This document shows, piece after piece, positions 28,579 to 33,567 of a DNA stretch of 64,000 nucleotides; within the stretch, counting starts at the first letter, position 1; every line of letters begins with the position of its first letter. A model generated the notes under the pieces. It made no database searches. It was not told where the DNA came from and saw only the letters and a program-made list of their open reading frames with translations. A program made the position numbers and the translations under genes. This stretch comes from an uncultured Alphaproteobacteria bacterium. Lineage in GTDB: Bacteria > Pseudomonadota > Alphaproteobacteria > UBA6615. Location: contig CALSNJ010000002.1 in NCBI GenBank assembly GCA_943787745.1, positions 248,001 through 312,000 on the forward strand. The letters run 5' to 3'.

Positions 28579-31242
28579 TCAGAAGTTCAGGGAGATATCC
28601 CTGTGGACGGCCAGGCAGGATGCCATATCGCCAATATGTTCTGACGGCAGGCGTTCCTGCAGGCGAAGGCCAATCGTGTCGGCGAGAGTATCGCTGTAAG
28701 TCGTGAGTGGTGTTGCCAGTTCTGCGGCGGCGCGGGTCCGCCACTCGAGTTCTTCCAAATACAATGCGACAGCCTTGCTGGCTTCCACGACAGCTTTTTC
28801 GGGATTTGGTGTCCGTGCAGTCAGCGCGCGACGTGCTTGCGTCAGAGGGGCACGAATCCGGCTTGTGTCTGTGAGACGGGCCAGTGAAGATTCTGTGGCC
28901 TTCAGCGTCTCTATGGCCTGATCACCGGACTGCGCAGCAAGCGCACCAGGGAGATTACTCACTTGCTCTTTCACAGCGGCAAAGTCTTCCGAGCCCGCAA
29001 TAATCTCGCGCAGTTCCAGGATAGGCTCATAGGCCTGGTCGACATTTCGCCGATAAGTCAGGCGTGCTTTCTTCACAGCGCTCGAAAGCGTCGTATAGCG
29101 TTTGCGTGCATCGTCCCATTCAGTCGGCAGTCCGGCCTCAAGCACTTTCTGCTCGGCCTGTAGTTTGAGGATCAGATCCTCCATGTCGGCCGTTTCGGTG
29201 CTGGTGAATTCACCGTTGCGTTTGTCCTGACGTAGTTCTTCGCGATGTTCCTTGATCTCGGCAATGTGGTCGCGGATATCGGCCTGCATACGCCGGACAC
29301 TGATATGGAGCGGCCGATATTCGGGAACGTAGTCTGCGAGGTCGCGCTCGCTCTCACGAATGTCTTCGACCAATTGGAAGGTCGCGAGGGCTTTGGTGAA
29401 ACTGTCGTTGATTTCCTTCAACCGTTTGGGGGGCAGATAACTGAAATCGAGTGTTTTCCCACTGTCAATCGCCGCGACGAGTTCCGGTCGCCGTTCATCG
29501 TAGATCGGGAACAGCCGTTCTTCGATGCATTGCTGGAGCCGCGGGTTCTTTGGAGGCGGAGCCGTTTCAGCTGACAGGAAAGACTTGTTGGGCAGGAAGT
29601 TCACCAGCGAGGGGAAGTTGCCGACGATTGCCAGACCCAGAAGCTGGAGCCCGATAAAGGCTGCCACGCCCTTGTACATGGACGTGGTTTTGACAATGGC
29701 TGGCGCAACACCGCGTAAATAGAAGAGCGCGAACCCGAAGGGTGGGGTCAGGAACGATGTCTGCATGTTGACGCCGATCATGACGCCAAGCCAAACCGCA
29801 GTGATATTTGCGGACGGATCCTGCAGCAGGATCGGTGCGACGATCGGAACCACCACAACGGCGATCTCGATAAAGTCGAGGAAGAAGCCGAGGACGAAGA
29901 TCACGGCCATGACCACGATAAACTGGGTCCAGAAACCACCCGGCAGGCTTTCCAGAAATCCCTTCACCAGTTCTTCGCCACCAAAGGCACGGAACGCAGC
30001 TGTCAGCATGGCTGCGCCAAGCAGGATGATGAAGACCATCGAGGTGGTTTTAGCGGTCTCGATCATGACACTGCGCATGGTGTCGTCGATCTTGTGGACT
30101 CGCCAACCGCTCCACAGCACTGCGGACAGGAATGCCACAACGGCGGCGACCGCGAGCAGAATTCCGAACAGATCATTGCCGGTATCGATGCTCTTTATGT
30201 TGAGATCAAAGTTTTCCAACAGGACGAAGACAACAACAACGGCAGCAATGGCGATCAGGGCCGGTACATAGGTGAGGCGGTTGCCTTCGGTAAGGCGATA
30301 GCCGGCCATGATGATCGCGCCAACCGCACCGATGGCACCAGCCTGGTTTACAGTCGCGATGCCCATGATGATCGAACCGAGAACCGCGAGGATCAGTGCC
30401 AGCGGCGGGATCAGAACGAGGAATACGCGCAGCGCAAACCGAAGATTATAGGCACCGTCGTGACGGACGGCTGGCGCGCTTTTCGGGCGGATCAGCGCAA
30501 AAATAAGGATATAGGCGAGATACAGACCGACGAGCACGAGGCCGGGCAGGAACGCACCCAGGAACATGTCACCGGCACTTGTTGAGGCGATGTCGAACTC
30601 ACCGGGCATGGTAAACTCGCCCGTGGCTTCCTTGTATTCGGCTTTTCGTGCCGTACTGGCCTGATCCGAGGCGCTCGAGAGCTGATCGGCTAGGATGATG
30701 AGCACGATTGAGGGTGGGATGATCTGCCCGAGTGTGCCGGAGGCCGCGATGGTTCCTGTCGCGAGAGAATGAGAATAATTGTTACGCAGCATCGCTGGCA
30801 GGGAAATCAGTCCCATCGCCACAACGGTTGCACCAACAATGCCTGTGGTCGCCGCAAGCAGAGCGCCAACAATCACCACAGACATGCCCAGACCACCGGG
30901 AACAGGCCCGAAAAGCTGTGCCATGGTGACCAGCAGGTCTTCTGCGATCTTTGACCGCTGCAGCATGATGCCCATGAAGACAAACAGCGGAATGGCTATC
31001 AGGGTATCGCGCTCGACTTCCCAGTAGATTCCTCGGAAATTCGTGACGCCGGCGGTCAGCCACTGAATGGGCCCGTCCTGTGCGAAATAGCTTCCCGTAT
31101 CCCCGGTGAAAGCCCACCCAAACAGGGAGGCCAATGCGATTGTCAGAATGGCCGAACCGGGCAGTGCGAATGCCACCGGGTAACCCATGGCCAGAGCACT
31201 GGCCATAAGCAAAACCAGAACGGCGATGAAGAAGACTTCCAT
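28579..31242 (-). CDS. TRAP transporter large permease (DctM-like) with long C-terminal extension
   Basis: Membrane subunit that drives sodium-coupled solute uptake in a TRAP transporter. Residues 1-550 are DctM-like with about 14 hydrophobic helices; TTGIVGATVVAMGLISLPAM, GTLGQIIPPSIVLIILA and the C-terminal FFLDFIEIAVVVVPIVAP and NMQTSFLTPPFGFALFYLRG mark the mannitol/chloroaromatic-like branch. Two features are unusual. Residues about 318-385 form an inserted pair of helices. Residues 551-887 form a hydrophilic, mostly helical extension with charged coiled-coil-like stretches (for example RRMQADIRDHIAEIKEHREE), absent from the usual 425-450-aa DctM. There is no frameshift; one open frame covers both parts. 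It lies 26 nt after the small subunit gene. Confidence 0.88.
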   Translation of the reverse strand: MEVFFIAVLVLLMASALAMGYPVAFALPGSAILTIALASLFGWAFTGDTGSYFAQDGPIQWLTAGVTNFRGIYWEVERDTLIAIPLFVFMGIMLQRSKIAEDLLVTMAQLFGPVPGGLGMSVVIVGALLAATTGIVGATVVAMGLISLPAMLRNNYSHSLATGTIAASGTLGQIIPPSIVLIILADQLSSASDQASTARKAEYKEATGEFTMPGEFDIASTSAGDMFLGAFLPGLVLVGLYLAYILIFALIRPKSAPAVRHDGAYNLRFALRVFLVLIPPLALILAVLGSIIMGIATVNQAGAIGAVGAIIMAGYRLTEGNRLTYVPALIAIAAVVVVFVLLENFDLNIKSIDTGNDLFGILLAVAAVVAFLSAVLWSGWRVHKIDDTMRSVMIETAKTTSMVFIILLGAAMLTAAFRAFGGEELVKGFLESLPGGFWTQFIVVMAVIFVLGFFLDFIEIAVVVVPIVAPILLQDPSANITAVWLGVMIGVNMQTSFLTPPFGFALFYLRGVAPAIVKTTSMYKGVAAFIGLQLLGLAIVGNFPSLVNFLPNKSFLSAETAPPPKNPRLQQCIEERLFPIYDERRPELVAAIDSGKTLDFSYLPPKRLKEINDSFTKALATFQLVEDIRESERDLADYVPEYRPLHISVRRMQADIRDHIAEIKEHREELRQDKRNGEFTSTETADMEDLILKLQAEQKVLEAGLPTEWDDARKRYTTLSSAVKKARLTYRRNVDQAYEPILELREIIAGSEDFAAVKEQVSNLPGALAAQSGDQAIETLKATESSLARLTDTSRIRAPLTQARRALTARTPNPEKAVVEASKAVALYLEELEWRTRAAAELATPLTTYSDTLADTIGLRLQERLPSEHIGDMASCLAVHRDISLNF

Positions 31243-31268: not shown

Positions 31269-32318
31269 CTAGGGCGCCGGTTGTTCAGGTGGTTTCGGTT
31301 TCCCGGGTTCGCCGCGAAGGTCGGCAACGCTCGAGAGGAAATAACTGGTGAACTGCACCATCATCGAAACAGCGAATACGGCGAGGAAACCCGCCATGAG
31401 GTATTTGACGTAAAGACCAAAGCCGCTTTGGGAGGTCTCAAAGCTGAGCAGCGGACTGTTGATGACCGTGGCCTTCCCCGCCATCCCCATGGAGAGAATG
31501 ATCCAGCAGAGCGGCAGTCCCAGCAGCAAGGCACCTATTGAGTTTGTCCATGCTTTGCCGCGTTCACTGAACCCTGTGTAGAGAACGTCGACACGAACAT
31601 GCCCCTCTTCGGTCAGCGTGTAGGCGCTCGCGAACAGAAACAGCGCGGCGTACCAGAACCGGACAAGGTCCCCCATGAACGCTTGTTCATATGAAAATAT
31701 GAAACGCGCGATGACGATCTGAAGCTCCGCGATCACAACCAGCAGGGCCAGCCATGCAAAACCGAGCGTCCGCGTGAAGTATGCAATCACCAGCGATACA
31801 ACAATCAGCGGATAGTGCACGAAGGCACCGCGGAATCGCGACAGTCCAAGTTCTGTGGTGAGTTTGTCACCGACGAAATAGGAAAGGAAACCCTCGACAC
31901 GCAGGAACGAGATGACGGTGTCTGCAATGCCAATCAAAAGAACCGACCAGAACGCAGCGCGAATTATGAACGCGGAAAGCGCGGAAAGGTTGGCCGAATC
32001 CACCCGCAAGCCGCGCTGTGGAGTCCCGATTACATAAGCGGCGACCAGTCCGATCAGCACGACATAGAGCAGTATTTGAAGCCACCCGAGAAGGGGTGCG
32101 CCTTCTGGCAATGGCTTGTTGAGAGCTTCTGCGCCAAACCATTGCAGGTGTGAGAACAGGTTCCCGATCCCGGGCCAGTCCTGCCAGAATGTGAGGTAAT
32201 TGTTGAGCAGGAAACCAGCACAGATGGCGATGATCGACAGGGCAAAAATCCGGAGTGCGAGACCTCCGAAGTCACCAATTTTTGCGGGCTGTACGTCGCC
32301 GAGAGTGGTAGCCGTCAT
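31269..32318 (-). CDS. TRAP transporter small permease (DctQ-like), enlarged
   Basis: Small membrane subunit of the TRAP transporter. The C-terminal half resembles DctQ (RFIFSYEQAFMGDLVRFWYAALFLFASAYTLTEEGHVRVDV), where EEGHVRVDV is the family core. The N-terminal half adds about 170 residues and further helices, for roughly eight hydrophobic segments in 349 aa compared with four in about 170 aa for ordinary DctQ. The ATG at 32318 is used because ggggga lies upstream; a TTG 18 nt earlier is in frame. The binding protein gene lies upstream with a terminator hairpin between. Confidence 0.85.
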   Translation of the reverse strand: MTATTLGDVQPAKIGDFGGLALRIFALSIIAICAGFLLNNYLTFWQDWPGIGNLFSHLQWFGAEALNKPLPEGAPLLGWLQILLYVVLIGLVAAYVIGTPQRGLRVDSANLSALSAFIIRAAFWSVLLIGIADTVISFLRVEGFLSYFVGDKLTTELGLSRFRGAFVHYPLIVVSLVIAYFTRTLGFAWLALLVVIAELQIVIARFIFSYEQAFMGDLVRFWYAALFLFASAYTLTEEGHVRVDVLYTGFSERGKAWTNSIGALLLGLPLCWIILSMGMAGKATVINSPLLSFETSQSGFGLYVKYLMAGFLAVFAVSMMVQFTSYFLSSVADLRGEPGKPKPPEQPAP

Positions 32319-32415
32319 ACTGTCTGTTTCCCCCAAAATTCCAAGGACAAGGCTAAGCCAATAGAGACCCTGCTGTCTGTGTGGAAATTTGTCACATATT
32401 CGTCAGGCACACATG

Positions 32416-32466: not shown

Positions 32467-33567
32467 CTAAAGTCCAAGAACGCGGTTGCGCTGGGCAACG
32501 TAGGCCTGGTCCGAAATGTTCGTCCAGCCACCGACTTCCTCACGTGCTTTGAGGAAGCTGGCGTGAATGCGAGCCGCAAGATCGCTGTGCGCGACGACTT
32601 CGCTGAACACTTCGTCAGCAGCAGTGCCGAAGCTGTCATAGATCTCGTCAGAGAACTCGCGCAGTTCAACACCGTTGTTGTTGATCAGCTGTGCGAGTGA
32701 CGCGCCGTTCTTGGCGTTGTACTCGGACATCATGACGTCATTTTCCATCGAAGCAGCGGCTTCAATCAGCAGCTTGTCAGACGGTGACAGCTTGCCCCAG
32801 AACGACGCGTTCAGTCCGACGGCCAGCATTGAGCCCGGCTCATGCATGCCCGGATAGTAGTAGAACTTCGCAGCTTCGTAGAACTTCATGACCTGGTCGT
32901 TCCAGGGACCAACCCATTCGGTTGCGTCGATGGCGCCGGAAACGAGGTTCTCATAAATCTGACCACCCGGCAGGGAAACAGGAGAGGCACCCAGCTTGGC
33001 CATGACGTCACCGCCGAGGCCCGGGATACGCATCTTCAGACCCTTGAGGTCGTCTGCTGTGTTGATTTCCTTGTTGAACCAGCCGCCCATCTGGACGCCG
33101 GTGTTGCCGCACATGAGACCCTTGAGGTCGAACTCGGCACCGAGCTCGTCCCAGAGTTCCTGACCACCACCAAAGCGGATCCAGGCGTTCATCTCGGTAT
33201 AGGTCAGGCCAAACGGAACGGCTGTGAAATATGCCCAGCCCGGATGCTTGCCTTTCCAGTAATAGTCAGCGGCGTGATAGCCCTGAGCGTTCCCGGATGC
33301 GACTTCGTCGAAGGAGTCGAACGCACCAACGCGCTCACCTGCTGCGAAATATTCGACCTCGATACGACCGTCACTCATGGTGCGGAGGCGGTCTGCGAAA
33401 CGCTGTGCGCCTGTCCCAAGGCCCGGGAAATCACGCGGCCATGTGCTGACCATTGCGAATTCGACGCGCTCCTGCGCGATTGCCGGTTTTGGGAAAGCGG
33501 ATGCGGCAGCAGCAGCGCCGGTCACACCGGCTAGGCCTGCGGCCTTGATAAACTTACGTCGTTCCAT
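32467..33567 (-). CDS. TRAP transporter substrate-binding protein (TakP/DctP-like)
   Basis: Periplasmic solute receptor. A twin-arginine signal (MERRKFIKAAG, then Ala-rich helix ending KPAIAQ, about residue 31) suggests export folded. The mature part resembles the alpha-keto-acid binding protein TakP: GNTGVQMGGWFNKEINTADDLKGLKMRIPG near residues 154-183 and ATEWVGPWND near 214-223, both in the ligand site. At 366 aa it is normal. The substrate class (2-oxo acid or related carboxylate) is inferred from family resemblance only. First gene of the TRAP operon. Confidence 0.92.
   Translation of the reverse strand: MERRKFIKAAGLAGVTGAAAAASAFPKPAIAQERVEFAMVSTWPRDFPGLGTGAQRFADRLRTMSDGRIEVEYFAAGERVGAFDSFDEVASGNAQGYHAADYYWKGKHPGWAYFTAVPFGLTYTEMNAWIRFGGGQELWDELGAEFDLKGLMCGNTGVQMGGWFNKEINTADDLKGLKMRIPGLGGDVMAKLGASPVSLPGGQIYENLVSGAIDATEWVGPWNDQVMKFYEAAKFYYYPGMHEPGSMLAVGLNASFWGKLSPSDKLLIEAAASMENDVMMSEYNAKNGASLAQLINNNGVELREFSDEIYDSFGTAADEVFSEVVAHSDLAARIHASFLKAREEVGGWTNISDQAYVAQRNRVLGL

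Follow-up and report, generated by a model that had tools for sequence, protein, structure and literature searches.

What might a hydrophilic helical domain of about 330 residues do at the end of the large permease subunit of a TRAP transporter? The question is raised by a locus found in the window analysed here, a 64,000-nucleotide stretch of DNA from an uncultured Alphaproteobacteria bacterium (contig CALSNJ010000002.1), in which the extended dctM gene lies next to the genes of an enlarged small subunit, dctQ, and of a binding protein, dctP. Their coordinates and those of the features discussed below are collected in Table 1.

Table 1. Features of the extended TRAP locus, in positions of the window
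Feature	Position	Strand	Basis
dctM, extended TRAP large subunit	28579..31242	-	887 aa; Pfam DctM 211 bits; AlphaFold2
DctM membrane core, residues 1-557, SiaM fold	29572..31242	-	PpSiaM superposition, Foldseek
Extra ~15-residue loop stretch after TM2, residues ~57-71	31030..31074	-	Alignment with ~520-aa DctMs; model helices
Extra 14-residue loop stretch, residues ~201-214	30601..30642	-	Alignment with ~520-aa DctMs
Two-TM insert, residues 318-385	30088..30291	-	Present in L030-L038, absent from ~430-aa DctMs
C-terminal helical extension, residues 558-887	28582..29571	-	AlphaFold2 of residues 555-887 alone
Codon of invariant Cys572, start of extension	29527..29529	-	Cys in 70/70 proteins
Codon of invariant Cys876, end of extension	28615..28617	-	Cys in 70/70 proteins
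Conserved C-terminal tail HRDISLNF, residues 880-887	28582..28605	-	Conservation up to the final residue
dctQ, enlarged small subunit	31269..32336	-	355 aa from TTG; Pfam DctQ at 208-329 only
N-terminal extension of DctQ, ~165-185 aa	31761..32318	-	Absent from ~175-224 aa DctQs
dctP, TakP-like TRAP binding protein	32467..33567	-	366 aa; Pfam DctP 179 bits; predicted Tat signal

The single frame described in the original prediction proved to be a clean one: it begins with ATG and runs through its 887 codons without any internal stop. The hmmscan match to the Pfam family PF06808 (DctM) places the protein among the TRAP large subunits, and its score against the NCBIfam model TIGR00786 (259.6) is slightly below the cut-off of 268.45. 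The AlphaFold2 model of the full chain (mean pLDDT 84.3, pTM 0.79) superposes on PpSiaM (7qha_B) with a Z-score of 40.3 and an rmsd of 2.7 Å over 421 residues (model range 6–556; Foldseek TMt 0.86). This structural alignment stops at residue 556, and the membrane part thus ends near residue 557, close to the predicted boundary at about residue 550. A two-helix insert had also been presented as a feature which ordinary TRAP transporters lack. The insert is indeed present, but it is not unusual, since it was found in every ordinary DctM relative of about 520 residues that was compared, and it could therefore be dismissed as a special trait. Two loop insertions, at residues ~57–71 and ~201–214, are confined to the extended clade in the alignment with these ~520-residue DctMs, and both should be periplasmic according to the SiaM topology.

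The extension itself (47 K/R and 57 D/E) is as hydrophilic and helical as had been anticipated. When residues 555–887 are folded alone by AlphaFold2, almost all of the domain is helical, with a mean pLDDT of 91.5 and a pTM of 0.82. Long predicted helices (567–596, 605–676, 681–703 and 709–749) are followed by a small four-helix bundle at about 749–841, and then by a conserved C-terminal segment; in the full-chain model the helices reach 72 residues, which corresponds to ~105 Å if straight. The domain begins with a proline-rich linker, ETAPPPKNPRLQxC, and closes on the conserved end RLQ(D/E)RL...C..HRDISLxF. Column conservation averages about 50%, the best-conserved parts being both ends and the patches near 642–650 and 706–740, and the least conserved the hairpin-turn stretch of the coiled coil, residues 676–700 (0.37). 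A set of 15 relatives keeps the extension, invariant residues included, as do 69 full-length proteins taken from named genome records; judged from these alignments, its conservation is far beyond chance. The confidence of the tail, residues 880–887, differs strongly between the isolated domain (pLDDT 34–54) and the full chain (about 85). This gain, observed only when the membrane part is present, suggests that the tail folds back and packs onto it.

No known domain could be recognised in this part of the protein. The Pfam hmmscan search detects nothing in the last ~330 residues of dctM, NCBIfam gives weak coiled-coil noise with no match above a curated cut-off, and 31 members of the extension compared with Pfam yield low-scoring hits spread over many coiled-coil families, with no named domain. 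Searches for a solved homologue by sequence likewise returned coiled-coil noise and nothing convincing, and the best Foldseek match to a solved fold has an E-value of 0.23. Residues ~749–841 resemble bundles of the BRIL (cytochrome b562) and SMBP type with VIA-align Z-scores of 10–12 (rmsd 2.0–3.0 Å over 81–97 residues), values which are within the chance range for helical folds, helical bundles becoming convincing from about 13. The extension is thus a domain with neither a Pfam or NCBIfam name nor a clear match to a solved fold. A free-standing or otherwise fused version was not found in the 780-odd genomes searched; among the weak matches, the one in genome G230 was read and turned out to be coiled-coil noise. 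There is also no plasmid copy covering 80% of the extended protein.

On which side of the membrane does this domain lie? A regulatory role had been considered likely for a cytoplasmic location, where the domain would sense or gate transport from inside, and it is general knowledge that hydrophilic charged helices are often seen in cytoplasmic regulatory domains. Two lines of evidence run counter to this placement. SiaM, as represented by PpSiaM, has an N-out/C-out topology (PMC9971032) and, since the core superposes on it up to residue 556, the residues after 557 should be periplasmic. The second line comes from the cysteines C572 and C876, which are invariant in a domain otherwise conserved by half, and which are the sole cysteines of the protein in 40 of the 70 extended proteins. 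They are most naturally read as forming a structural disulfide, which would imply an oxidising compartment and provides an independent pointer to the periplasm. The extension is therefore most likely located on the periplasmic face, in view of the homology of topology and of the invariant cysteines, and a cytoplasmic regulatory domain looks very improbable.

It was also necessary to consider whether two unrelated genes could have been fused by an assembly or frame artefact. Nothing was found to support such an origin, the probability of which is negligible. The same fusion recurs at near-constant length in at least 80 loci from independent genome records, and it can thus be taken as real, as predicted. 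Among 60 relatives, dctM is found at full length, with 61–81% identity, in its own family and in a second family. A scan with the extension only, on one genome per species (GTDB 220), gave 149 loci, and 80 of them were retained. Where these are untruncated, the genes stand in the order P-Q-M and the M protein measures 878–890 residues in nearly all of them; the few that read longer do so through upstream starts only. The owners include isolates of Roseibium/Labrenzia and Pannonibacter, Rhodospirillales, Kiloniellaceae, Magnetovibrio, Defluviicoccus and a Pelagibacteraceae MAG, as well as, within the gammaproteobacteria, Osedax symbionts and Chromatiales; all those found so far are Proteobacteria. 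In a tree of the cores built with a quick method, a branch with full support (SH-aLRT 100) sets all the extended proteins (57/57) apart, and a single origin of the extended dctM would be the simplest reading. The original prediction had asked whether the extension might prove to be a common, named domain: it is fairly common, about 8% of 385 genomes sampled across the class carrying it, yet it is unnamed in Pfam and NCBIfam.

Several observations on the loci can be added. In a Rhodobiaceae MAG (L118:5340-7996), the extended dctM is split over two overlapping frames, by a frameshift or a sequencing error. An ordinary Q-M pair (DctQ of 175–184 residues, DctM of ~520–600 residues) stands directly behind the extended P-Q-M set in four loci (L062:8035-10182, L080:8057-10176, L084:6446-8577 and L110:8059-10201), so that two QM pairs seem to share a single binding-protein gene, or to follow it. 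The source genome itself holds a dozen or more TRAP loci. Three of its long DctM frames, of 830, 736 and 743 residues (L145:487-2979 on contig C5, L146:683-2893 on C7 and L147:911-3142 on C2, respectively), were examined as further extended dctM genes and rejected, since they look like TAXI-type fused QM permeases without the extension. In line with this, the extension search of the genomes of the class gives a single match in the source genome (G000).

The small subunit of the system is unusual as well. The first codon of the dctQ frame is a TTG (32336); relatives begin at the ATG at 32318, and the real DctQ is probably the 349-residue protein starting there. The Pfam DctQ family (PF04290, 38.6 bits against a cut-off of 28.3) identifies it as a TRAP small subunit through its C-terminal part. 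The N-terminal extension, with no clear Pfam family, would carry about four TM segments according to hydropathy, and ten of its residues are invariant (R29, P55, G136, D139, S143, R146, E148, R169, H174 and P176). DctQ measures about 320–390 residues in the extended systems, against about 175–224 beside the unextended ~520-residue DctMs. The small subunit, which had been described as doubled, is therefore enlarged (349–355 residues here), but not duplicated: hhalign gives a probability of 0.3% to a relationship between its N-terminal and DctQ halves, and an internal duplication could be discarded. The two enlargements are tightly linked. The 385 genomes of the class comprise 31 with a true M-extension (a count which excludes the chance coiled-coil match of G230), 32 with a Q-extension and 30 with both, and the three exceptions (G131, G030 and G059) are loci cut by contig ends. 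One genome, G129, holds two M-extensions and two Q-extensions. The M- and Q-extensions thus strictly co-occur.

The third component, dctP, provides the TakP-like binding protein which had been noted next to the permease. It matches PF03480 as well as a TAT signal model, and its alignment with TakP (2hzk) scores 245 bits. The residues which bind the sodium and the 2-oxo acid (pyruvate) in TakP, Y100, Q156, R177, E214, W215 and E240 (PMC1839085), correspond to Y103, Q159, R180, E217, W218 and E243 in dctP. All six are identical, and across 61 binding proteins from extended systems their conservation is 95% or more; the substrate class is therefore likely to be that of sodium-bound 2-oxo acids. 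Comparison of the binding proteins of extended systems with those of eight ordinary ones, most of them partial, reveals 35 signature positions, which are densest at residues 187–232. This clade-specific cluster (32872-33009, protein P0003) includes K228, where a glycine is found in 8/8 ordinary proteins, and E231, where these have K, R or Q. It possibly marks a docking surface, or mere descent. No fixed fourth gene is evident among the 13 neighbourhoods listed, hence the partner of the extension is probably to be found within P-Q-M.

Taken together, the strict association between the M- and Q-extensions, the expected periplasmic exposure, the lack of a fixed fourth gene and the precedent of the TAXI claw lead us to favour a docking platform. 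The TAXI-TRAP transporter VcGluQM has a C-terminal periplasmic claw for which contact with the binding protein is predicted (PMC11574862). By likeness to this claw, the large subunit would most likely have gained a periplasmic arm, along with the four-TM enlargement of DctQ, to dock, orient or retain its binding protein, a reading to which we assign a probability of about 0.45. The TakP-like protein would gather its substrate, probably a sodium-bound 2-oxo acid, in the periplasm and, like its counterparts in other TRAP systems, pass it on to the Q-M elevator. The helical domain of M, probably closed by the disulfide, would stand on the periplasmic face, and would form with the periplasmic loops of the Q-extension and the lengthened M loops an enlarged platform, which holds, orients or retains the binding protein while the substrate is transferred. 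The clade-specific M loops, also expected in the periplasm from the SiaM topology, and the 35 signature positions of the binding proteins count in favour of docking. On the other side, unextended QM pairs serve TakP-like proteins as well (L030-L038), the signature positions may be clade markers only, and conservation is low over much of the coiled-coil part, as it would be in a spacer. A stronger version, in which the arm and the Q-extension would form a permanent cage, the (possibly dimeric, TakP-like) binding protein being tethered instead of diffusing, is rather unlikely; no description of such a mechanism was found for the TRAP family.

The main rival to docking is a structural or oligomerising role in the periplasm, where the arm and the Q-extension would enlarge and stiffen the stator, or link two transporters to each other, and would not themselves bind the P protein. 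This is a possibility, if a doubtful one. The strict co-occurrence of both extensions is in line with it, the simplest role for the roughly four TM helices gained by Q would be to enlarge the membrane scaffold, and coiled-coil-like helices with a little-conserved middle suit such a function. Moreover, elevator relatives of the VcINDY type are dimeric with large interfaces, and SiaQM is not tightly dimeric (PMC10942642). Bracing leaves unexplained, however, why the M loop insertions, the domain bounded by the two cysteines and the conserved polar patches should all face the periplasm, and why the tail is conserved up to its final residue. The length of the helices also brings to mind an envelope anchor, an arm extending to the peptidoglycan or to an outer-membrane partner and placing the transporter under a porin or a receptor. 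All owners found so far, being Proteobacteria, do have an outer membrane. The turn of the coiled-coil hairpin is nevertheless the least conserved part of the domain, no peptidoglycan-binding or other known domain was detected with Pfam, and the operon lacks a conserved fourth gene in the neighbourhoods listed, so that this anchor appears improbable, more so than bracing or a permanent cage.

The docking reading bears on an open question, namely the way in which TRAP transporters recognise their binding protein and cause it to open. The structures considered here are those of TRAP membrane parts, the tripartite complexes being models. As a natural system, the widespread subfamily with the arm and the enlarged Q is of use here, since its contact with the P protein may be large and stable enough to be solved; its owners include marine groups (Roseibium, Rhodospirillales, a Pelagibacteraceae MAG, Osedax symbionts). 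With the domain libraries used, the extended dctM is recognised merely as an ordinary large permease. In the open literature searched, which comprised open-access papers and a small part of the preprints, the TAXI claw is the only C-terminal extension of a TRAP large subunit that was found. The paired M arm and enlarged Q is undescribed so far in the literature searched, the underlying DctP-type TRAP transporter being a known type of system.

How does this system compare with those already characterised? It shares with PpSiaPQM and HiSiaPQM the P-Q-M set, the elevator fold of DctM and the DctQ and DctP families, and differs from them by the ~330-residue helical domain of M, the predicted four-TM N-terminus of Q and the two longer M loops. 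The closest relatives of its core are the ~520-residue DctMs of L030-L038 (about 46–53% identity), which have the same two-TM insert and the same kind of binding protein. These lack the C-terminal extension and stand beside a short DctQ, and the extended proteins form a group separate from them (SH-aLRT 100). As regards the binding protein alone, the likeness is to TakP of Rhodobacter sphaeroides, with all six sodium/pyruvate ligands retained (PMC1839085). The claw of VcGluQM, which belongs to DUF3394, is mainly beta and is inserted between the penultimate and the final TM helix, within an extension that adds three TMs. In contrast, the M-extension is all-helical in the models and C-terminal to the last TM, and DUF3394 has no hmmscan match in dctM up to E = 1; the two domains are unrelated. 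They have in common to be C-terminal accessory domains of a permease, on the periplasmic side, and the claw is proposed to grip its binding protein (PMC11574862), much as the helical arm would do here.
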